From Frondihabitans australicus (GTDB lineage: Bacteria; Actinomycetota; Actinomycetes; Actinomycetales; Microbacteriaceae), in the NCBI RefSeq assembly GCF_003634555.1, contig NZ_RBKS01000001.1, positions 248,001-312,000 on the forward strand: a stretch of 64,000 nucleotides of DNA. The letters run 5' to 3'. The notes beneath the pieces are model-generated. The model did no database searches. It had not been told where the DNA came from and saw only the letters and a list, made by a program, of their open reading frames with translations. Position 1 is the stretch's first letter. Each line of letters opens with the position of its first letter. Below, in pieces: positions 22,161 through 33,712 of the stretch. The position numbers were made by a program, and so were the translations under genes.

Positions 22161-22193
22161 AATCCGCTTGGAATCACCGGATGTTCACCGACC
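22161..22193 (+). promoter_or_regulatory. Candidate PHO box upstream of the pst operon
   Basis: There are three consecutive 11-base units, AATCCGCTTGG, AATCACCGGAT and GTTCACCGACC. The last two share TCACCG at exact 11-base spacing. Eleven-base direct repeats built on GTTCACC are the binding unit of PhoP/PhoB-type regulators in Streptomyces. The element ends about 125 bases before pstC. Binding is inferred and not shown. The rest of the 369-base gap holds the terminator and no gene I can support. Confidence 0.55.
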
Positions 22194-22318: not shown

Positions 22319-23302
22319 ATGACGTTGTCCACAGATTCGCCCCGCCTGCTCACGGTCGTGCGGGACCCGTCGGACGTCAGGTTCCGAGGCCTCGCCCGCA
22401 CGGGCGGGATCCTGGTCCTCACGATCATGTCGCTGGTCGGTCTCTTCCTGGCCTTCCGCGCCTCGCAGGCGCTCCGCGTGGCGGGCCTCGGGTTCCTCAC
22501 GACCCAGGCCTGGGACCCCGACGCCCACCACTTCGGCATCGCCGCCGTGCTGATCGGAACGCTCCTCATCGCCGCCGTCGCCATCGTCTTCGCCGTGCCG
22601 CTCGCGCTGGGCACGGCGCTCTACATCACCGAGTACGCGCCCGGCCGTGTGCGCTCGCTGTTCATCGGCCTCGTCGACCTGATGGCGGCGATCCCGAGCG
22701 TGGTCTACGGGCTGTGGGGCTTCTTCTTCCTGCAGAACCAGATCACGCCGGTGTCGCGCTGGATCTCGCAGTGGTTCGGCTGGATCCCGCTCTTCCGCGT
22801 GGACGGCGTCCACCTCGACGACCCGCTCGCGTCGTCCACCGTCTACACGTCGTCGACGTTCATCGCGGGGATCGTCGTCGGCCTCATGATCACGCCGATC
22901 GTGACGTCGATCATGCGCGAGGTGTTCTCGCAGGCGCCTCTGGGCGAGCGCGAGGGCGCCCTCGCACTCGGCTCGACTCGCTGGGGCATGATCCGTGCGG
23001 TGGTTCTGCCCTTCGGGCGAGGCGGCATGATCGGCGGGACGATGCTCGGTCTCGGGCGGGCGCTCGGCGAGACCATCGCCGTCTACATGATCATCTCGCC
23101 GGTGTTCGTGATCCAGCCGCATGTCCTCCAGTCGGGCGCGAGCTCGGTGTCGTCGCTCATCGCGCTGCGCTACGGCGATGCGACGCCGTTCGGCACGTCG
23201 GCCCTGATGGCCGCCGGGCTGACCCTCTTCCTGATGACCTTGTGCATCAATTTCGCCGCGTCGGCCGTCGTCGCACGATCGCGGTCGGGGGCGAGCAGCT
23301 AG
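22319..23302 (+). CDS. pstC: Phosphate ABC transporter permease PstC
   Basis: This is an inner-membrane permease of the high-affinity phosphate importer, 327 residues long. It has six predicted helices and the BPD-transp EAA loop (EREGALALGSTRWGMIRAVVLP). The PstC-typical segment DLMAAIPSVVYGLWGFFFL is present. The ATG at 22319 has AAGGA directly upstream; the longer open frame to 22181 is low-complexity and covers the PHO-box region. pstA starts two bases after the stop. Confidence 0.95.
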   Translation: MTLSTDSPRLLTVVRDPSDVRFRGLARTGGILVLTIMSLVGLFLAFRASQALRVAGLGFLTTQAWDPDAHHFGIAAVLIGTLLIAAVAIVFAVPLALGTALYITEYAPGRVRSLFIGLVDLMAAIPSVVYGLWGFFFLQNQITPVSRWISQWFGWIPLFRVDGVHLDDPLASSTVYTSSTFIAGIVVGLMITPIVTSIMREVFSQAPLGEREGALALGSTRWGMIRAVVLPFGRGGMIGGTMLGLGRALGETIAVYMIISPVFVIQPHVLQSGASSVSSLIALRYGDATPFGTSALMAAGLTLFLMTLCINFAASAVVARSRSGASS

Positions 23303-23304
23303 TC

Positions 23305-24693
23305 ATGACCGAGATCATCCAGGCGCCGAAGGGCGCCCCGTCAGCCCTGCCCGCAGGTCGCCGCGAGCGGCTCGTCCAGGCCGCGCCCACGAGCCCGTCG
23401 GACCCGTCCGAGGGCGGCTCGGGCACCGTCCTGCCCCTGCTCGAGCGCGAGTCGGAGCCGCGTCGGGGCCCCGAAGTGCGTCGGGTGAACGGCATGCGGA
23501 TCAGCGACCTGCTGGCCATCGTCGGGGCGGGTCTCGCGTCGCTTGCGGTCACCGCGACGATCTTCGCCCAACTCGCTCCCGTGTCGGGCCCGATCGCCTT
23601 CGCCGCTGTTTTCTACGTGATGTTCCTCGTCTTCTACGCCCTGCTCGTGGCGGTGGAGGAGAGCGCGGCCGTGGTGCGAGACCGGGTCGTGTCGGCGGCT
23701 ATCCACACGCTCGCGTTCGTCGTCGTGGCCACACTGGTCTTCGTCGTGGCGTTCAGCGTCGTCCGTGCGTCGAAGGCGCTGCCGCACTGGAACCTCTACA
23801 CGCAGGACATGTCGCTGACGGGGCCGCTCGACCCGCTGTCGTCGGGCGGAGTGCTCCACGCCATCGCGGGCTCGCTGATCCAGATCAGCATCGCCCTCGT
23901 CATCACTGTGCCACTCGGGCTCACGACGGCTCTGTTCCTCACCGAGGTGCCCGGCCCGTTCGCCCGCTTCGTCCGAACCATCGTCGAGGCGATGACCGCC
24001 CTTCCGTCGATCGTCGCGGGTCTGTTCATCTATGCCAGCGTGATCCTCGTCCTCGGCGTCGACAAGTCGGGTTTCGCCGCCTCGCTCGCCATCAGCGTGA
24101 TGATGCTGCCGATCATGATCCGGTCGGCCGACGTCGTCCTCCGGCTCGTACCGGCGACGCTCAAGGAGGCCTCGATCGGCCTCGGCGCCGGGCAGTGGCA
24201 GACCGTGTGGCGCGTCGTGCTCCCGACGTCCCGCTCCGGTCTCGTGACCGCGATCATCCTCGCCACGGCGCGGGGGATCGGCGAGACCAGCCCGGTCCTC
24301 TTGACCTCGGGCTTCACCGCCGGCCTCAACCTCGACCCGCTGCACGGGCCGATGATCTCCCTGCCGCTCGCGATCTTCGAGTTCGTGAAGTCGCCCGAGC
24401 CGAACATGATCGCTCGCGGATTCGGCGCCGCGGCAGTCCTCATGTTCCTGGTGCTCGCCCTCTTCGTCATCGCCCGCGTCATCGGCGCGCAGACGGTCGC
24501 CAGCCGTGAGCGGCGGGCCGAGCGGATTCGCAGGATCGGGAGCCTCCTCGGGGCCGGCGCCGCTCGCCTGGCGACGCTCACCGCTCCCGCGCGCTCCCGC
24601 GCGTCCGACCTCTCCGAGCGGTTCATCCCGACCCACCCCGCTCCGCAGGAGTTCCCCGTGTTCCCCGTTCCCCCCGAGAAGGACCCCTCGTGA
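23305..24693 (+). CDS. pstA: Phosphate ABC transporter permease PstA, extended N-terminus
   Basis: The partner permease of PstC has 462 residues, longer than typical PstA (about 280-370). The first 60 residues are soluble and disordered, followed by two or three extra helices (about 65-150). The canonical permease domain then carries the EAA motif (LKEASIGLGAGQWQTVWRVV) and the GIGETSPVLLTSGFT segment. About 55 polar residues trail the last helix. The gene ends in a GTGA overlap with pstS. Confidence 0.93.
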   Translation: MTEIIQAPKGAPSALPAGRRERLVQAAPTSPSDPSEGGSGTVLPLLERESEPRRGPEVRRVNGMRISDLLAIVGAGLASLAVTATIFAQLAPVSGPIAFAAVFYVMFLVFYALLVAVEESAAVVRDRVVSAAIHTLAFVVVATLVFVVAFSVVRASKALPHWNLYTQDMSLTGPLDPLSSGGVLHAIAGSLIQISIALVITVPLGLTTALFLTEVPGPFARFVRTIVEAMTALPSIVAGLFIYASVILVLGVDKSGFAASLAISVMMLPIMIRSADVVLRLVPATLKEASIGLGAGQWQTVWRVVLPTSRSGLVTAIILATARGIGETSPVLLTSGFTAGLNLDPLHGPMISLPLAIFEFVKSPEPNMIARGFGAAAVLMFLVLALFVIARVIGAQTVASRERRAERIRRIGSLLGAGAARLATLTAPARSRASDLSERFIPTHPAPQEFPVFPVPPEKDPS

Positions 24694-26393
24694 TCACCCC
24701 AAGAAGACGCACCCTCGGGGCGCTGCTGGCCGCCGCCGTGGTCGCCCTCGCGATCCTGCCCGCCGCGGCCGCCAGTGCGGCCACCTCCTACGTCCCGATC
24801 TCGGGCGCGGGGTCGTCGTGGTCGTCGAACGCGATCCAGCAGTGGGCCGTGAACGTGCAGCAGTACGGCATGCGCGTGAACTACGCGTCGACCGGCTCGT
24901 CCGACGGGCGCAACCAGTTCAAGGCCGGCACCGTCGACTTCGCCGTCTCGGAGATCCCCTACGGCATCACGGACGGCGGCGTGACGGACGCACCGCCGAC
25001 GGTCGGCTACGCCTACATGCCCATCGTGGCGGGCGGCACGTCCTTCATGTACAACCTGAGCGCGGGCGGCAAGCAGGTCACGAACCTGCGACTGTCGGGC
25101 GCGACGCTCACGGGCATCTTCACCGGGACGATCACGAGCTGGGACGACCCGAAGATCAAGGCCGACAACCCGGGACTCGACCTCCCCAAGCGCCAGATCG
25201 TTCCCGTGGTGCGGTCCGACGGCTCCGGCTCGACGGCTCAGTTCACGACCTGGATGAGCAAGAAGTACCCGTCGGCGTGGAACGCCTACTGCAAGCAGGC
25301 CGGCCGACCCCTGCCCTGTGGGATCACGTCCAACTACCCGGTGATCCCAGGGAAGGGCTTCATCGCGCAGCCGAACTCGCAGGGCGTCTCGGGCTACGTC
25401 GCCCAGAAGGCCAACGTCGGCACGATCACCTACGTCGAATACTCCTACGCGCTGAAGACCGGCTACCCCGTCGCCAAGATCCTGAACAAGGCCAGCTACT
25501 ACGTCGAGCCGACCGCCTCGAACGTGGCGGTCGGTCTGCTCGCCGCCAAGATCAACCAGAACAAGGCGTCGCCGCAGTACCTCACGCAGATCCTCGACGG
25601 TGTCTACGACAACCCCGACCCTCGCGCGTACCCCCTGTCGTCGTACTCCTACATGATCATCCCGACCTCGACGGCGACCAACTTCACGACGGCCAAGGGC
25701 AAGACCCTCGGCGCCTTCTCCAACTACTTCCTCTGCGAGGGGCAGCAGCAGGCGGAGGTGCTCGGCTACTCGCCGCTTCCGATCAACCTCGTCCAGGCCG
25801 GCCTCGACCAGGTGAAGCGGATCCCCGGCGTCGTGGCGACGGCGATCGACATCAAGAAGTGCAACAACCCGACGTTCTCGTCCGACGGCACCAACACGCT
25901 CGCGAAGAACGCCCCGCAGCCCTCGCCGTGCGACAAGCTCGGCGCCACGCAGTGCACGACGGGCACGGGCGGCGCGAAGGCGTCGACGCCGACGCAGGCC
26001 GGGTCGAGCGCGTCCTCGTCGGGCTCGACCGGCGCGGTCGCGTCGACGACCGGATCGTCGACTGGCACGAAGGCGACGGCGGGGTCGACAGCGACCGCGG
26101 GGGCGACGGCGGCCGCAGGATCGGGCGGCACCGGCTCCGGCACGACGGGCTCGGGCTCCGGAACTGGCTCCGCCTCCACCGTGAACGCCCTCGGCGACGG
26201 CTCGCCGGTCCAGTGCGACGCCGACAGCGGCGTCTGCCAGAACGTCGCGGCGCTGCCGGTCTCCGTGTCCGCGTCGAGCGGGTGGACGCCGCGCCAGTCG
26301 CTCATGGTCGGCGCCGTCGCCGCGCTCCTCGGCCTCGTAGTGGTCCCGCCGCTGGTCGGGCTGCTCCTCAGCCGCCGGAGGGTCCGCCGATGA
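24690..26393 (+). CDS. pstS: Phosphate-binding protein PstS-like, membrane-anchored
   Basis: The 567-residue protein begins with a signal peptide (about 1-31). A type II periplasmic-binding fold with PstS phosphate-contact motifs follows: ISGAGSSW, STGSSDGRNQF, GTVDFAVSE and VRSDGSGSTAQF. After about residue 420 comes a Ser/Thr/Gly/Ala-rich linker of roughly 80 residues, then a small Cys-containing patch, a membrane helix (about 538-560) and a basic tail. The usual actinobacterial PstS is a lipoprotein; here there is no lipobox Cys and the protein is instead tethered by its C-terminus, so the binding domain could reach through the thick wall. Both gene ends overlap their neighbours by four bases. 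Confidence 0.9.
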   Translation: MITPRRRTLGALLAAAVVALAILPAAAASAATSYVPISGAGSSWSSNAIQQWAVNVQQYGMRVNYASTGSSDGRNQFKAGTVDFAVSEIPYGITDGGVTDAPPTVGYAYMPIVAGGTSFMYNLSAGGKQVTNLRLSGATLTGIFTGTITSWDDPKIKADNPGLDLPKRQIVPVVRSDGSGSTAQFTTWMSKKYPSAWNAYCKQAGRPLPCGITSNYPVIPGKGFIAQPNSQGVSGYVAQKANVGTITYVEYSYALKTGYPVAKILNKASYYVEPTASNVAVGLLAAKINQNKASPQYLTQILDGVYDNPDPRAYPLSSYSYMIIPTSTATNFTTAKGKTLGAFSNYFLCEGQQQAEVLGYSPLPINLVQAGLDQVKRIPGVVATAIDIKKCNNPTFSSDGTNTLAKNAPQPSPCDKLGATQCTTGTGGAKASTPTQAGSSASSSGSTGAVASTTGSSTGTKATAGSTATAGATAAAGSGGTGSGTTGSGSGTGSASTVNALGDGSPVQCDADSGVCQNVAALPVSVSASSGWTPRQSLMVGAVAALLGLVVVPPLVGLLLSRRRVRR

Positions 26394-29008
26394 ACAGCCG
26401 CCACCTCGTCCGCCTCGGTTCGGCGGCTCTCGTCTTCGGCGTCGTCACGACCGCCGTCGCCGGCTCGCTGCTGGTGGCGACGATCCCCGCGTCGGCGTCG
26501 ACCGCGGCCGCAGCGGGATCCGCTCCGTCCGCGACGACGTCGAACGCCACCGGATCCGCGGTGTCGACGACGTGGACGGCCGCGCAGGCGGCGCTGGGCG
26601 ATCAGGGCTCCGCCGGGAGCGGTGCCGCGGATCCTGACGCCTCGGACTTCTCGTCGATGGCGTTCACCGTGAGCCAGACGCAGAACCTCGTCGACCAAGG
26701 CATCACCGTCAGCTGGACCGGCGCGAAGCCGACCTCGCCGGCCGAGTACGCGACGAACTACCTGCAGATCATGCAGTGCTGGGGCGACGAGGCCACCGGG
26801 CCGAGCCCCGAGCAGTGCGAGTGGGGCGCGCCCTCGGCCAGCATCAGCGCCCTCATGGGAGTCAACACCGCGAAGCGCGACCTCGTCGTCGGCGACGACC
26901 CGCTCGAGGATCCGACGCTCACCGGCGCGAAGGCAGACCCCGACTACCTCCTCGACCCGCCCGTGACGAACCCGTTCCAGAAGGCGTACCGGGTGCCGTT
27001 CCGCGCTGTCGACGGCACACTCGCGAAGTCGACCGTCGACCTCTCGAAGCAGTTCGACGCGACCACCACCAACGAGGTGAGCGCCGCCCGCACGGCCGGC
27101 GACGGCTCGGGGCAGGTGACGTTCGAGACGCAGACCGGCCTCGAGGCGCCGCAGCTCGGATGCGGCGAGGACGACACGGTGGGCAGAGTGACGTCGCCGC
27201 GCTCCTGCTGGCTCGTGATCGTCCCCCGCGGAAGCCACAACCTCGACGGTTCGGCCTCGACGTCGACCGCCGCGGGTCGGGTGACCGGCTCGCCGCTCTC
27301 CGAGACGGCCTGGCGCGACCGCGTCGTGGTCAGGCTGGGGTTCCGGTCGGTGGCGCAGTCGTGCCCGATCGGCAACAAGGAGCAGCGGCTCGTCGGCTCC
27401 GAGACCATCACCGAGGCGATCACGTCGTGGCAGCCGGCCCTGTGCGGACTCGGCACCACGTACGGGTTCTCGCAGATCGGAGACGATGAGGCCCACCACC
27501 AGATCGTGTCGACGATCGACGGCGCCTCGCGCCTGGCGATCGTCAACGACCCGCTCGACGCGGCCACGTCCGGCGGGACCGCGATCGACTACGCGCCGGT
27601 CGCGCAGTCCGCGATCGTCGTGGCGTTCACGATCGACTACCGGCTCTACCCGAACGCCCCGGCGCACAGCCGCGACGGACTTCAGGCCCTCGACCTCACG
27701 CTGAACGCCCGTCTCGTCGCCAAGCTGCTCACGCAGTCGTACCAGGCGGACGTCCCCGGCCGCGCCGCCGGCGACGCGGTGGTGAAGGCGAATCCGACGA
27801 GCATCGTCACCGATCCGGAGTTCCTTGCCCTCAACCCCACGTTCGTCGACTCGAAGAGCGACACGGCTCCGGCCGGCCTCATGGTCGCGCTCGGCAACGC
27901 GAACGCGAACGCGCGCGTCTGGGCCTGGCTGCGCGCCGACCCCGACGCCGACTCGTTCCTCAAGGGCCACGCGGACGAATGGGGCATGCGGATCAACCCG
28001 AGCTACCTGCCCCTCGACCTCGGGACCGATGCGACCGTCGACAGCTTCCCGAAGGCCGACCTGACCATCGCCAAGGGCGGAGACCCCGACGAGACGGGGT
28101 ACGGCACGCTCGACATGCGCCCGTACATGAACGACATGCACGAGGGCGCCTACCGCACGCTCAAGGCCGATCCCAACGAGAAGGACTCCTGGAACCCGTA
28201 CGGCCAGCCGAAGGGCTACACGTCGCTCGGCGCCCAGATCCCGGGAAGCCGCTTCCTCCTCTCCATCACCGACGCCGCCTCGGCCGCCCGCTACGGCCTC
28301 CCCACGGCGAAGCTGGTCAACGGGGCCGGCGAGGCCGTCGCCCCCACATCGGACTCGATCGCCAAGGGCATCGCGACGATGAAGCAGTCCGAGGTGCCCG
28401 GCGTGCTCGTCGCCGACCCGACCTCGGAGGCTTCGGGCGCGTATCCGCTGTCGATGATCAGCTATGCGGCCGTCAACGTGTGCGCCGCGACCTCGCAGCA
28501 GCGCGCCGACTACGCGAAGTTCATCGACTACGCCGCGGGCCGCGGGCAGACCCCGGGCGAGGCCAAGGGCGATCTGCCCGACGGCTACGTCCCCCTGTCG
28601 CAGGCGATGGAGCAGGGCGCGACGAAGGTCGCGGCACAGCTCACCGACTCGAAGGCGGTCGCGGCGCAGTGCCCCGCCGCCACCGTGCCGCCGGCGGCCG
28701 CCACGTCGCCGCAGACATCCACGGCACCGGTCGCCGACACGTCGGGCTCGGGCACGGACGCAGGAGCGACGGACGTCGCTCCGGCCGACACCGGCACCAC
28801 GGGCGGGCAGGCCGCTGCTCCTGCAACCGTCTCCGGAGACGTCGACGAGGCGGCCCCGCTGAACCAGCGCACGAAGGACCAGCCGCTCTCCGCGACCCGC
28901 CTGGGTCTCGCGGGCGCGCTCGGCGCGGGGATACCCGCGCTCGGCATCGGTCCGTTCCTGATCCGCCGCGGGCGTCGGCTGGCGCAGCTCGCCGCCGCCC
29001 TCGTGTGA
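26390..29008 (+). CDS. Large membrane-anchored surface protein in the pst operon (possible PstS-like domain)
   Basis: I cannot name a family with certainty. The 872 residues comprise a signal peptide (about 1-38), a Ser/Thr/Ala spacer, a large extracytoplasmic body of about 700 residues with several Cys, a Thr/Ala/Pro-rich linker (about 760-830), a C-terminal hydrophobic segment and an Arg-rich tail. Segments such as NDPLDAATSGG and APVAQSAIVVAFTIDYRLYP resemble parts of the PstS fold, so the body may hold a diverged substrate-binding domain with large insertions. Lack of an LPXTG motif argues against sortase anchoring. The start overlaps the pstS stop (ATGA), so it belongs to the transporter operon. 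A role in phosphate or phospho-ligand capture at the surface is inferred. Confidence 0.8.
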   Translation: MNSRHLVRLGSAALVFGVVTTAVAGSLLVATIPASASTAAAAGSAPSATTSNATGSAVSTTWTAAQAALGDQGSAGSGAADPDASDFSSMAFTVSQTQNLVDQGITVSWTGAKPTSPAEYATNYLQIMQCWGDEATGPSPEQCEWGAPSASISALMGVNTAKRDLVVGDDPLEDPTLTGAKADPDYLLDPPVTNPFQKAYRVPFRAVDGTLAKSTVDLSKQFDATTTNEVSAARTAGDGSGQVTFETQTGLEAPQLGCGEDDTVGRVTSPRSCWLVIVPRGSHNLDGSASTSTAAGRVTGSPLSETAWRDRVVVRLGFRSVAQSCPIGNKEQRLVGSETITEAITSWQPALCGLGTTYGFSQIGDDEAHHQIVSTIDGASRLAIVNDPLDAATSGGTAIDYAPVAQSAIVVAFTIDYRLYPNAPAHSRDGLQALDLTLNARLVAKLLTQSYQADVPGRAAGDAVVKANPTSIVTDPEFLALNPTFVDSKSDTAPAGLMVALGNANANARVWAWLRADPDADSFLKGHADEWGMRINPSYLPLDLGTDATVDSFPKADLTIAKGGDPDETGYGTLDMRPYMNDMHEGAYRTLKADPNEKDSWNPYGQPKGYTSLGAQIPGSRFLLSITDAASAARYGLPTAKLVNGAGEAVAPTSDSIAKGIATMKQSEVPGVLVADPTSEASGAYPLSMISYAAVNVCAATSQQRADYAKFIDYAAGRGQTPGEAKGDLPDGYVPLSQAMEQGATKVAAQLTDSKAVAAQCPAATVPPAAATSPQTSTAPVADTSGSGTDAGATDVAPADTGTTGGQAAAPATVSGDVDEAAPLNQRTKDQPLSATRLGLAGALGAGIPALGIGPFLIRRGRRLAQLAAALV

Positions 29009-29096
29009 CCGAGTTCCACCCACGCCTCCGCCGCCGGCGGGGACTCCAGGCCCCGCCACCGGCGAGGTCAGATCACAACGAAAGGAAACACCAGCC

Positions 29097-31178
29097 ATGA
29101 AGGTCACCACCTTCTGCAAGTTCGGCGTCACGATCGGGGCAGCCGCCCTCATCGTGGGTGCCTTCGCCGTGCCGGCCGCCCAGGCCGACCCGACGCCCGC
29201 CGGCTCGTTCGGCACCCTCGTCGGACTCGGCTCGGACACGACGCAGGACGTCATGAACGGCGTCGCGACGGCGATCGGCGGCGGGCAGATCGCCTCCTAC
29301 GACGCCACCAACGCCGGGCCCAGCGTCGTCACCCGCTCCGGCGGTATCGCGATCCCGCGAGTGTCGGGATCCGGCGCCGGCCGCGACGAGCTCCTCGTCT
29401 CGATCGGCCAGCTCGCCAACAAGTCGGGCGTCGCGCTCGCCGACGGCACGAGCACCACGGTCGACTCGTCGGTCGTCGGCCAGCTCGACTTCGCTCGCTC
29501 CTCGGGTGGGCCCGCGACGAACGTGCAGGCCGCCGACGGCGTCGTCGCCTACATCCCCTTCGCGCAGGATGCGGTCGACGTCGCGTTCGCCCCCGGCAGC
29601 CCGCTCGCGAAGATCCCCTTCTACATCGGCACCGGCAAGGAGGACAAGACCGAGCCGACGCTGTGGAACGTCTACCGCGGCGACGTCGCCTATGCCTACT
29701 TCAACGCCGACGGTTCGTACAACTCGGTCGGATCCTCCGCCACCGGCCCCGACGGCACCACGGTCTACAAGATCCAGCCGCTGCTCCCGAAGTACGGCTC
29801 GGGCACCCGCAGCTACTTCCTCGGCCAGCTCGGTCTCACCGACGCCTCCGGCTTCACGACGACGAACCCCTACGTCGCCGACACCGACAACGGGCAGCCG
29901 ATCGAGGAGCACAACGGCCAGGCCGTGATCGACTACACCTCGGGCTCCACGCTCGCCATCGCACCGTTCTCGGTGAGCCAGTGGGTGGCGCAGGCGAACG
30001 GCGTCGGCACCGTCACCGACCGCCGCCACGGCGTCGTCCTCGCATCGCTCGGCCGGTCGGCCACCGGCCAGACGCCGGCCACCACCGGCAGCGGCACGTC
30101 TTACGCGACGAATCCCGGCTACGCCGGCTTCGTCCGCGACGTGTACAACATCGTGCCGTCGAGCCTGGCCGACGACCCGTCCAGCCAGATCGCCAAGACC
30201 TTCGTCGGCCCCAACTCGCTCGTCTGCAAGCAGACCGCGACCATCGAGGCCTACGGATTCCTGCCGGAGCCCGCCACGAGCGCCGCCACCACGTGCGGCT
30301 ACTCCCAGCTGCGCGCGTTCACGGCCTCGACCTCGAGCACCGCGCTGACCATCGCCGCGTCCGCGACCATCGGCACCGCGATCAACGCCACCGCCACCGT
30401 CACCTCCTTCGGCAACGGCGGAGGCAAGGTGTACTTCTACCAGGGCCAGAACGTCGTCGGCTCCGGAGTCGTCGCCTCCGGTGCGACCACGGTCACGGCT
30501 CCCGTCACTCTCACGGGCACGGGCTCCGCGCAGGTCACCGCGCAGTTCGTCCCGGCCCTCGCCGGCGTCGGCGCGAGCGTCAGCTCGCCGTCGACCGTCG
30601 CGGTGAACGCCGCCCAGACCGTGTCGAGCACCAGCGTCAAGCCCGGATCGTTCGTCATCGGCAAGTCGTCGCCCTCAACCATCACGGTGGCGAACGGCGA
30701 CCCGGCCGGCGGCACCGTCACGCTGAAGAGCGGCAACACCGTCCTCGGCACCGCGAAGCTCGCCGCCGGTGCGACCTCGGCCGTCATCTCGACGTACCCG
30801 CACGCGCTCACCTACGGCCTCGTCGCCAGCTACGTCCCGGCCACGTCGGCCTCGACGAAGTCGAACAGCGCGCTCGTCAGCGTGAAGGTCGCGAAGGGCT
30901 CGCCGAGCTTCAGCACCAGCACGCCCAAGACCGTGTCGCGCAAGGCTCACGCCGTGTTCAGCGTCGCCGTCGCCGGCCTCGGCACCACGCCGACCGGCAC
31001 CGTCACCGTCAAGGAGGGCAGCAAGGTCCTGGTCTCCAAGAAGGGCCTGAACAACGGCAAGGCGCTGATCAGCGTCCCGCTGCTGGCTGACGGCACCCAC
31101 AAGCTGACCGTGATCTACAGCGGCAGCACCCTTTGGAACACCGCCACCCGCACGGTGACCGTGAAGGTCGTCCACTAG
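29097..31178 (+). CDS. Secreted binding-protein-like protein with Ig-like repeats
   Basis: The 693-residue protein has a signal peptide (cleavage near AAQADP, about residue 30). A domain of about 370 residues follows with PstS-like character (VGLGSDTTQDVMN, SGAGRDELLV, VGQLDFARSSGGP, VAYIPFAQDAVDVAF). Then come about three bacterial Ig-like repeats (about 405-690, VTLKSGNTVLGTAKL and VTVKEGSKVLVSKK). There is no C-terminal anchor. It has its own AAAGGAAA site 88 bases after the preceding gene. I infer an exported solute-binding-like protein on an Ig stalk. The missing anchor suggests it is released, held by other proteins, or wall-associated through the Ig repeats. Confidence 0.82.
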   Translation: MKVTTFCKFGVTIGAAALIVGAFAVPAAQADPTPAGSFGTLVGLGSDTTQDVMNGVATAIGGGQIASYDATNAGPSVVTRSGGIAIPRVSGSGAGRDELLVSIGQLANKSGVALADGTSTTVDSSVVGQLDFARSSGGPATNVQAADGVVAYIPFAQDAVDVAFAPGSPLAKIPFYIGTGKEDKTEPTLWNVYRGDVAYAYFNADGSYNSVGSSATGPDGTTVYKIQPLLPKYGSGTRSYFLGQLGLTDASGFTTTNPYVADTDNGQPIEEHNGQAVIDYTSGSTLAIAPFSVSQWVAQANGVGTVTDRRHGVVLASLGRSATGQTPATTGSGTSYATNPGYAGFVRDVYNIVPSSLADDPSSQIAKTFVGPNSLVCKQTATIEAYGFLPEPATSAATTCGYSQLRAFTASTSSTALTIAASATIGTAINATATVTSFGNGGGKVYFYQGQNVVGSGVVASGATTVTAPVTLTGTGSAQVTAQFVPALAGVGASVSSPSTVAVNAAQTVSSTSVKPGSFVIGKSSPSTITVANGDPAGGTVTLKSGNTVLGTAKLAAGATSAVISTYPHALTYGLVASYVPATSASTKSNSALVSVKVAKGSPSFSTSTPKTVSRKAHAVFSVAVAGLGTTPTGTVTVKEGSKVLVSKKGLNNGKALISVPLLADGTHKLTVIYSGSTLWNTATRTVTVKVVH

Positions 31179-31271
31179 GCCGACCCGGATGGGTCGCCCG
31201 GCCGGCATCCGCCGTGCCGGGCGACCCGCCCACCTCCTTCTTCCCCGTCCGTCCTCCCACGATTGCCGCCG

Positions 31272-32204
31272 ATGACGAGTTCCCCCCTCACCGCCTCCTC
31301 AGGCTGGTCGCGAGACACCGCGAGTCCCGCCGCCCGGGCCCTTCCCGTGCTCGGCGAGCCCGACCGCTGGCGCTTCGGCGGCTCCGCTGTGATCGTGGTC
31401 GGACTGCTCCTCCTCGGCTTCGCCGTCCAGTTCATCGGCGTCTCGCAGATCAGCTACCTCCGCGACCAGCAGCTCGAGCTCGACTCGTTCCGCTACCAGC
31501 TCGCGAACGCGACCGCACCCGTCGGGCAGACGGGTCAGGACGGCCGCCTCGTCGACCCCGGGACACCGGTCGCGATCCTGCGAGCACCCAGCATCGGCCT
31601 GAACGCTGTCGTCCTCGAGGGAACGACCTCCGACATCACGCGCTCGGGCCCCGGGCACCGCCGCGACACCCCGCTGCCCGGGCAGGCCGGCGCGAGCGTC
31701 GTCTACGGGCGGCAGACCGGCTACGGCGGGCCCTTCGGCCAGATCGGCCGGCTGCACGTCGGCGACGTCCTCACCACCGTCACCGGACAGGGCCGGGCCC
31801 GCTACGTCGTCACCGACATCCGCTACCCGGGCGACCGCGTGCCCCAACCCCTGGCGGCAGGAGCAGGGAGACTCACTCTCGTCTCCGGCGCCGGCCTGCC
31901 CTACCTCCCCGACACCGTGGTCCGTGTCGACGCGAAACTCGTGACGAAAGCCGCCGTGACCCCCCAGCCCGTCTTCAGCTACGCCGCGCTTTCCCCGCAG
32001 GAGCTGACCATGGCGGGCGACGGAGACGTCTGGCCGTTCGTCGTGCTCGGCCTCATCGCTCTCGCCGGCATGGTCGCCCTCTTCGCCGTGGGCATGCGCC
32101 TCTGGGGGCGCCGGCAGACCCTCGTGGTCGCCGTGCCCGTCGTGCTCGCGGTCGGGCTGTTCGCCGCCGGCCAGCTCACCGTCCTGCTCCCGAACCTGAT
32201 GTGA
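31272..32204 (+). CDS. Sortase-like membrane protein lacking catalytic His and Cys
   Basis: The 310-residue protein has a membrane helix at about 38-58, a sortase-like beta-barrel domain at about 95-225, and two further helices (about 254-277 and 283-306). The order of motifs fits class E/D sortases: IGLNAVVLEG, then ASVVYGRQTGYGGPFGQIGR, then a LTLVSGAG strand. Where active sortases have GH, this has Gly146-Arg147; where they have LTLVTC, it has Ser205-Gly206. Both catalytic residues are therefore replaced and transpeptidation is not expected. It may be a structural scaffold for the exported binding proteins encoded next to it. The start is ATG 31272 or TTG 31263, and neither has a clear ribosome-binding site. 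Confidence 0.78.
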   Translation: MTSSPLTASSGWSRDTASPAARALPVLGEPDRWRFGGSAVIVVGLLLLGFAVQFIGVSQISYLRDQQLELDSFRYQLANATAPVGQTGQDGRLVDPGTPVAILRAPSIGLNAVVLEGTTSDITRSGPGHRRDTPLPGQAGASVVYGRQTGYGGPFGQIGRLHVGDVLTTVTGQGRARYVVTDIRYPGDRVPQPLAAGAGRLTLVSGAGLPYLPDTVVRVDAKLVTKAAVTPQPVFSYAALSPQELTMAGDGDVWPFVVLGLIALAGMVALFAVGMRLWGRRQTLVVAVPVVLAVGLFAAGQLTVLLPNLM

Positions 32205-32217
32205 ACCGAAAGACACC

Positions 32218-33075
32218 ATGACCGACACAGACTCCCTCGCCTCCGAGTTCGACGCCTGGTTCGACCAGGCCACCGCCGTCGACACTCTCGACGATCCTGC
32301 GCCCGCCACTCTCGACGCCCGCGCCGTCTCGGCCTGGTTCGGCGACCACAAGGTTCTCGACCGAGTGTCGCTGACGATGCCCGCCGGGCAGGTCACCGCG
32401 CTCATCGGGCCGTCCGGATGCGGCAAGAGCACCTTCCTGCGCACCCTCAACCGCATGCACGAGCTCGTCCCCAAGGCGTCGCTCGCCGGCGAGGTGCTGC
32501 TCGACGACGTCGACATCTACGACGCCTCACGCCGCATCACGGACGCTCGGCGTCAGATCGGCATGGTGTTCCAGAAGCCCAATCCGTTCCCCGCCATGAG
32601 CATCCAGGACAACGTGCTCGCCGGGCTCGGGCTCACCGGCCGGAAACTCGACCGGGCCTCCCGGACCGACCTCGTCGAGGAGACCCTCACCAAGGCCGGC
32701 CTCTGGACCGAGGTGAAAGACCGCCTGCGCCAGGCCGGTGGCGGCCTCTCCGGCGGCCAGCAGCAGCGCCTCTGCATCGCGAGATCGCTCGCCGTGCGGC
32801 CCCGCGTGCTCCTGATGGACGAGCCCTGCTCCGCCCTCGACCCCACCTCCACCCGCCGCATCGAGCAGACCATCACCGAGCTCGCCAACGACGTCACCAT
32901 CGTCATCGTCACCCACAACATGCAGCAGGCCCAGCGCGTCTCCGACCGGTGCGCCTTCTTCCTCGCGGAAGCCGGCACCCCCGGAGCAATCGTCGAACAC
33001 GGCCCCACGCAGGACATGTTCGAGAACCCGCAGGATCCCCGGACCTCCGACTACGTCAACGGACGATTCGGGTAG
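32218..33075 (+). CDS. pstB: Phosphate ABC transporter ATPase PstB
   Basis: The ATPase subunit has 285 residues. It has Walker A GPSGCGKST, Q-loop (MVFQKPNPFP), signature LSGGQQQR, Walker B VLLMDEPCSALDP and switch THNMQQAQR. The PstB-specific PNPFP and ALDP segments make the assignment firm. An N-terminal extension of about 30 acidic residues is unusual. It follows the sortase-like gene by 13 bases and closes the operon; phoU and a phoR/phoP pair are not adjacent. Confidence 0.96.
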   Translation: MTDTDSLASEFDAWFDQATAVDTLDDPAPATLDARAVSAWFGDHKVLDRVSLTMPAGQVTALIGPSGCGKSTFLRTLNRMHELVPKASLAGEVLLDDVDIYDASRRITDARRQIGMVFQKPNPFPAMSIQDNVLAGLGLTGRKLDRASRTDLVEETLTKAGLWTEVKDRLRQAGGGLSGGQQQRLCIARSLAVRPRVLLMDEPCSALDPTSTRRIEQTITELANDVTIVIVTHNMQQAQRVSDRCAFFLAEAGTPGAIVEHGPTQDMFENPQDPRTSDYVNGRFG

Positions 33076-33121: not shown

Positions 33122-33174
33122 GGATCGGCCCCGCGGCGACTTTCGGAGCGCCACGCGCAGCCCGGGGCCGATCC
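33122..33174 (+). repeat. 12-base inverted repeat downstream of pstB
   Basis: GGATCGGCCCCG (33122-33133) is perfectly complementary to 33163-33174 across a 29-base loop. It probably folds in the pst mRNA tail and may act as a terminator or stability element. No T tract follows, so intrinsic termination is not certain. Confidence 0.55.
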
Positions 33175-33261: not shown

Positions 33262-33334
33262 GCCGCCTTAGCTCAGTCGGTAGAGCGATTCACTCGTAAT
33301 GAATAGGTCATCAGTTCGATTCTGATAGGCGGCT
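33262..33334 (+). tRNA. tRNA-Thr (anticodon CGT)
   Basis: The 73-base cloverleaf has a perfect seven-pair acceptor stem GCCGCCT/AGGCGGC and discriminator T. The D arm is GCTCAGTCGGTAGAGC, the anticodon arm ATTCA-CTCGTAA-TGAAT puts CGT at 34-36, and the T arm has GTTCGATTC. CCA is not encoded. There is no integrase gene or duplicated 3' end nearby, so no sign of an integrated element. Confidence 0.95.
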
Positions 33335-33712
33335 CACGATCGGGGTGCGTCTGCGCTCCGCCTCCTTCGTCGGCTCCGCGCCGGACTCCCGCGTTGTGCT
33401 CGTGCCGCGAGCGGCTTCGCCGCCGCGGGCGGCCGGAGGCCGCGATCAGGTCAGTGCTCGTCTGGCGCCTCTCGGCGCGTGCCACTTCGCTGCGCTCATG
33501 GCGGGGGCGCGAGCGGCTCCGCCGCCGCGGCGGAATCCCCTCCTCCCGGTCATCGATGCGACCGACAAGCGGTGTGCCCGGGGAGGAAGTGGCCTTCCTT
33601 CATCCTCCCGGACGTCTCCTGCGCCTGACGTTTCCTCCCGAAGACCCGTCGCGCGGCCCGATCTCCTCCCGTGCCGCCGCGGCGCGAGACAGGGGTGTGC
33701 CAGGCTGGGGGA
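33335..33712. repeat. Gene-free stretch with short repeats before rbsK
   Basis: No convincing gene lies in these 378 bases. Two kinds of repeat are visible. A 20-base word (33409-33428) recurs at 33511-33530 with one mismatch. TCCTCCCG occurs four times, at 33541, 33603, 33633 and 33664; the last three are about 30 bases apart, close to three helical turns. Read on the minus strand the word is CGGGAGGA. The cluster ends 42 bases before the ribokinase start and could be a regulator site. No tRNA-associated integration scar is seen. Confidence 0.5.
33701..33706 (+). promoter_or_regulatory. Leaderless -10 box of rbsK
   Basis: CAGGCT sits 12 bases before the GTG at 33713, the spacing shared with five other genes of the window. 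It is a weak match to TAnnnT. Confidence 0.3.

Follow-up and report, generated by a model that had tools for sequence, protein, structure and literature searches.

We analysed a 64,000-nucleotide stretch (the window) of the 4.04-Mb single-contig genome of Frondihabitans australicus, G000:C1:248001-312000, and describe here an expanded phosphate transport (pst) locus within it. Seven genes, all on the + strand, follow one another in the order pstC, pstA, pstS, a gene for an 872-residue protein, a gene for a secreted binding-protein-like protein with immunoglobulin-like (Ig) domains (PBP-Ig), a gene for a sortase-like protein that lacks the catalytic residues (the pseudo-sortase) and pstB. The order and sizes agree with those given in a first-pass annotation of the same DNA. 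In window coordinates, with bit scores set against family cut-offs and transmembrane (TM) segments taken from a simple hydropathy scan, the features are as follows.

22172..22189, + strand: PHO-box-like direct repeat, 12/14 to GTTCACC-N4-GTTCACC, 130 nt 5' of pstC; weak evidence as a single site
22319..23302, + strand: pstC, permease; TIGR02138 258.2 bits, cut-off 196.45
23305..24693, + strand: pstA, permease; TIGR00974 199.2 bits, cut-off 193.45
24690..26393, + strand: pstS, 567 residues; TIGR00975 210.1 bits, cut-off 205; signal peptide, C-terminal TM segment at 542-560, ligand residues present
26390..29008, + strand: 872-residue protein; N-terminal region, PstS-fold domain at 331-752, disordered linker, TM segment at 840-858
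29097..31178, + strand: PBP-Ig protein, 693 residues, secreted; PstS-fold domain at 40-404, three Ig-like domains at 410-693
31272..32204, + strand: pseudo-sortase, 310 residues; PF04203 47.3 bits, catalytic His and Cys missing, three TM segments
32218..33075, + strand: pstB, ATPase; TIGR00972 340.5 bits, cut-off 343.2
33122..33174, + strand: hairpin 3' of pstB with perfect 12-nt arms; possible terminator without a T run

Four-base overlaps join pstA to pstS and pstS to the 872-residue gene, and the other gaps are 2 bases (pstC/pstA) and then 88, 93 and 13 bases, all below 100 as first reported. PstC, PstA and PstS pass their NCBIfam cut-offs, and PstB has complete Walker and signature motifs. 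The hydropathy scan likewise agrees with the earlier view of a C-terminally tethered PstS and a membrane-anchored 872-residue protein, and it gives the PBP-Ig protein an N-terminal signal and no other TM segment, as expected of a secreted binding-protein-like protein with Ig repeats. With both a signal peptide and a C-terminal TM segment, PstS is predicted to need no lipid anchor. At the operon end, the hairpin stretch beats all 200 shuffles in folding; a T-run terminator scan did not call it. A sigma-70 scan detected no promoter, and the T-run scan no terminator at the end of the operon. A tRNA-Thr gene (33262-33335) lies downstream of the hairpin.

Conservation of the seven-gene unit

Homologues of the 872-residue protein were collected with that protein as the query, one genome per species and with no part played by gene neighbours, and the best 80 of 179 relatives were kept. 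They come from Curtobacterium, Frondihabitans, Cellulomonas, Leucobacter, Sanguibacter, Streptomyces, Actinoplanes, Amycolatopsis, Planotetraspora and other taxa, and the closest named homologues among the matches listed are from Curtobacterium (67-72%). Of the 80 fetched loci, 64 have all seven genes in this order, a count that is one complete locus too low, since tblastn overlooked the pstS genes of L052 and L067 that are visible in the open reading frame lists. Because the full set is kept in order so often, the arrangement is more than chance. The remaining 16 loci comprise L067, complete on inspection; 13 loci truncated by contig ends (L001, L013, L025, L029, L032, L034, L035, L045, L049, L052, L055, L060 and L076); and L047 and L068, from the same metagenome-assembled genome, which have no pstB downstream. 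In 67 of 75 loci pstS overlaps the 872-residue gene, by either one base or four. Outside the cluster, no gene family is common to more than 22 of the 80 loci. One family of 140-residue proteins, encoded about 4.5 kb upstream of the 872-residue gene (e.g., L022:4965-5384), is common to 22 and by eye resembles DUF1508.

The window's family was surveyed in 199 genomes, of which 45 have the 872-residue protein and 44 the pseudo-sortase, all 44 among those 45; no genome has the pseudo-sortase without the 872-residue protein. These genomes hold 51 matches to the 872-residue protein, 46 of which have a pseudo-sortase 2.1-6.6 kb away. The other five come from assemblies split into 100 to 420 contigs, and two of these matches sit at the very start of a contig. 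The check set by the first-pass annotation, whether the extra genes travel with the pst genes, has a favourable outcome, both from the complete loci and from the 44 of 45 carriers. At L092:5535-7378 (G402), a weakly matching copy of the pseudo-sortase (33%) adjoins a well-kept pstB with no 872-residue gene nearby, and is perhaps a remnant. Across the phylum the unit is patchy, since only 21 of 298 surveyed genomes have a match to the 872-residue protein, eight of them at 290 bits or more; within the genus, two of four other genomes are without it. In the divergent relatives L093-L095 the genes stay together.

A plasmid-borne or tRNA-linked element was also considered and is unsupported, with no plasmid match at E values up to 1e-20, tRNAs in 5 of 24 scanned loci and flanking families in at most 22 of 80 loci. 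A tRNA-Thr gene lies near the unit in L007 (6262-6335) and L021 (17681-17753) as it does in the window, though tRNAs of any kind are limited to the five scanned loci.

Receptor folds, stalks and a dead sortase

By sequence or prediction, the unit encodes three PstS folds. Those of the 872-residue and PBP-Ig proteins have phosphate-binding proteins as their best structural matches rather than unrelated adhesins or enzymes, and the matches of the cluster receptors include the PstS chain in the cryo-electron microscopy structure of E. coli PstSCAB (9k3x). For PstS itself, we aligned 76 cluster sequences to the numbering of what we take to be the ligand residues of E. coli PstS. The equivalent of Arg135 is kept in 74 sequences, those of Ser38 and Ser139 in 75 each and Gly140 in all 76, and the Phe11 equivalent is Trp in 74. 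The 872-residue protein scores 34.1 bits against the PstS family, below the cut-off of 205, and the profile alignment places no Arg in the stretch aligned to the phosphate-binding Arg loop. Its PstS-fold domain is without the usual loop and seems unable to bind. In the PBP-Ig protein, the motif GSG[TS]R is kept in 22 of 23 relatives. This is the least constrained gene of the unit, with nonsynonymous-to-synonymous rate ratios (dN/dS) of 0.10-0.78 in close pairs; the genes under the strongest constraint include those for PstC and PstB.

The Ig tail of the PBP-Ig protein is exchanged for separate proteins in other lineages. We compared 70 loci holding both a binding-protein gene and a pseudo-sortase gene. 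In 44 of them, as in the window, the binding protein has at least 550 residues and ends no more than 1 kb before the pseudo-sortase, with no extra protein. In 25, a short binding protein is followed by 1.4-6.1 kb of extra sequence. Only L022, with a short binding protein and no extra sequence, departs from this exchange, which holds in 69 of 70 loci. Of these 25 long-gap loci, 22 encode LPXTG- or LAXTG-like tails. Among 12 Ig-bearing long-gap proteins scanned for WxL, the Pfam cut-off is reached in five (exactly so in L048), two fall below it and five are unlisted; the WxLIP cut-off is reached in 10 of 13 scanned long-gap proteins, and the other three score 21-26 bits. The window's own seven proteins gave no match to WxL or DUF916/WxLIP at E values up to 1, these domains being found only in the long-form relatives. 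Passages of a survey of WxL gene clusters describe them as combining WxL, DUF916 and LPxTG proteins, with more than 91% of 938 WxL sequences in Firmicutes (PMC9772566). The long-form loci share this combination with the Firmicutes clusters so described but are actinobacterial and linked to a Pst pump. The three kinds of protein (WxL, WxLIP, LPXTG/LAXTG-like) stand together at L033:13397-17398 and likewise in L036, L037, L040, L042 and L048. Streptomyces olivochromogenes A53 has both stalk forms, a fused PBP-Ig protein in L043 and a short binding protein with 6 kb of extra genes in L049.

The separate stalk proteins would be anchored by ordinary sortases rather than by the sortase relative encoded beside them. 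The latter was first annotated as sortase-like, which stands as far as the fold is concerned: its PF04203 score is well above the cut-off of 26.6, and its profile matches solved sortases at an E value of 2.3e-16. The activity does not follow. Using what we take to be the sortase active-site residues, which agree with an aligned solved sortase, we found the catalytic His replaced by Arg in all 71 pseudo-sortases and the catalytic Cys by Ala in 62, Gly in six, Thr in two and Ser in one, which rules out an active sortase. The third catalytic residue, Arg, is kept in 69. The same genome's other three sortases keep both His and Cys, and the divergent pseudo-sortase copies in L093-L095 also lack the two residues. 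In eight close pairs the dN/dS is 0.07-0.39, so the protein appears to be maintained without its active site; by sequence, this is a dead sortase under selection. Compared with class E (and D) sortases, it shares the family and the Arg, but it is without the His/Cys pair, falls below the NCBIfam class E cut-off (59.6 against 160 bits) and has two extra C-terminal TM segments. In the text available of a sortase study of Actinoplanes missouriensis, none of five candidates is described as adjoining pst genes (PMC13251363).

A second Pst lineage and its promoters

The first-pass annotation had suggested that the cluster might replace lipoprotein PstS. This is not borne out, and a role as a substitute is ruled out by an ordinary pstSCAB operon elsewhere in the genome (G000:C1:2661007-2664999), whose PstS has a lipoprotein-like start. 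In a survey of PstC in 38 genomes, each of the 22 carriers of the 872-residue gene has one PstC adjoining that gene and at least one elsewhere, and 15 of the 16 non-carriers have a single PstC. The other non-carrier, G313, has two PstC genes above the cut-off (G313:C8:163174 and G313:C32:73846). The window's PstC is at most 42% identical to ordinary PstCs (30 rows, in which its own genome's ordinary PstC appears twice) and shares at least 61% identity with 38 other cluster PstCs; the PstC of L101 was assigned to the cluster group from its position adjoining an 872-residue gene. L029 and L096 probably duplicate a single record. In a midpoint-rooted tree the cluster side is weak at two nodes (0.39 and 0.33), and the cluster with L093 has a support of 0.998. 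Since these two nodes are poorly supported, we base the two-lineage split on identity, by which the cluster pst genes form a separate Pst lineage. A further pst set, at L094:14839-18568 (G274) and about 6 kb from the divergent unit, has a PstC 44-45% identical to both lineages.

Two distinct Pst systems in one genome have a parallel in Streptococcus pneumoniae, where Pst1 and Pst2 are evolutionarily distinct transporters of the same cell; the portion of that paper available mentions PhoU proteins but no surface scaffold genes (PMC4913102).

We then scored promoters for a direct repeat of GTTCACC with an 11-nt period, which we take to be the PhoP core, at a threshold of 11/14. The core was chosen post hoc, after a perfect repeat was noticed upstream of the genome's ordinary pstS. 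Over 416-500 nt at the ordinary pst loci, 28 of 29 (the window's genome included) reach 11/14 and 17 reach at least 13, and over 300 nt at the cluster 27 of 74 pstC promoters reach the threshold, compared with 9 of 326 other promoters taken from these loci. The loci are not independent, and near-duplicates were removed by PstC identity, which left boxes in 13 of 46 loci at below 90% (p 7e-8), 9 of 31 at below 85% and 7 of 23 at below 80%. Weak as these boxes are, the unit is probably induced by phosphate limitation in part of its lineages. The 10-mer GCCATTGACT, which contains a -35-like TTGACT, occurs 300-350 nt upstream of pstC in 18 of 75 loci with pstC, such as L026.

Proposed function

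The whole is best explained as a second, accessory phosphate ATP-binding cassette (ABC) importer with an enlarged receptor layer, to which we assign a probability of about 0.5. PstC, PstA and PstB form the pump, as their families and sequences show, and PstS, which its own C-terminal helix is predicted to tether to the membrane, would feed it. The PBP-Ig protein may be a second receptor, held further out in the wall on its Ig stalk; other lineages carry the Ig part on proteins of its own, which bear WxL domains or tails resembling sorting signals. The 872-residue protein and the three-helix pseudo-sortase would most likely serve as a scaffold without catalytic activity, by which the receptors dock on the permease. 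Like PstSCAB, the high-affinity phosphate transporter, the cluster has PstC, PstA and PstS above the NCBIfam cut-offs and PstB just under. It differs in having receptor genes between pstA and pstB, a TM-tethered PstS, two more PstS-fold proteins, a pseudo-sortase and a PstC of separate lineage. Phosphate as the ligand, the wall position, the scaffold role and the hand-over between receptors are what we infer from these parts.

More tentatively, the three PstS-fold proteins could sit at different wall depths as a membrane-tethered receptor, a non-binding scaffold and a stalk-borne receptor, with the pseudo-sortase organising them on the permease and phosphate captured in the outer wall passed inward. 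The wall-spanning phosphate assembly of the first-pass annotation remains plausible in this respect, and the swap of the fused Ig tail for stand-alone Ig, WxL and sorting-signal proteins adds to its plausibility; its replacement of the ordinary PstS does not hold, and its sortase-like part is no ordinary sortase.

Several observations weigh against the accessory phosphate importer. At the position of Asp56 in E. coli PstS, 50 of the 76 cluster PstS sequences have Glu, so the ligand may differ. PstB is 2.7 bits short of its cut-off, a marginal score, with PstB still the best-matching family. Cluster boxes are enriched but much weaker than ordinary pst boxes (13/46 against 28/29), and no cluster promoter of 74 reaches 19/22 for a longer PHO consensus. 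Nor is the gene order universal: the pseudo-sortase and binding-protein genes are swapped in L093, the pst and surface genes are split into two divergent groups in L094 and L095 (a search for a PBP-Ig match in L095 found none), and pstB sits upstream of pstC in L068.

The changes at Asp56 and Phe11 could instead mean that the pump imports another phosphorus compound or oxyanion, such as phosphite, a phosphoester or teichoic-acid pieces, with the 872-residue protein setting specificity. The missing Arg loop of that protein, the weak PHO boxes and the ordinary phosphate pump already present would all fit. We consider this rather unlikely, given that 74 to 76 of the 76 PstS sequences retain the residues equivalent to Arg135, Ser38, Ser139 and Gly140, PstC, PstA and PstS pass phosphate-transporter cut-offs and the PBP-Ig relatives keep GSG[TS]R. 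Somewhat less likely again is a unit that is mainly a phosphate sensor, in which pump and scaffold would convey the external phosphate level to PhoR or the cell surface, with uptake secondary. An ordinary PstC is always also present in the 22 carriers tested and two parts look non-catalytic, but the PstB ATPase motifs are complete, PstC and PstB belong to the most constrained genes and no regulator gene is common to the flanks. A surface-display or adhesion locus, with the pst genes merely linked or powering something else, is improbable: the Ig, WxL, WxLIP and sorting-signal proteins of the 25 long-form loci and the extracellular PstS appendages of Pseudomonas aeruginosa mentioned in passages of a review (PMC7866108) would suit it, but 44 of 70 loci are without such an extra protein and PstC, PstA and PstB are encoded by constrained genes that 64 of 80 loci retain.

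Among the titles and abstract openings listed by searches of open PMC full text, none describes this cluster. The same review, from 2021 and on actinobacterial phosphate transport, names the PstSCAB, PhnCDE and Pit systems, and its available passages make no mention of a sortase, a second pst or a paralog (PMC7866108).

The two stalk forms, fused and separate, make the unit directly testable. If the accessory importer does hold its receptors as a chain through the wall, it would be, to our knowledge, the first ABC importer with a receptor chain that spans the wall, and the pseudo-sortases would be the first conserved family of dead sortases with a scaffold role. Actinobacterial growth and antibiotic production are governed by phosphate supply. 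The unit would place a family of sortases that have lost catalysis in a context, and an accessory importer so widely scattered, with its dead sortase and a seemingly non-binding PstS, would lead one to ask how the receptors of ABC importers function within a thick wall.

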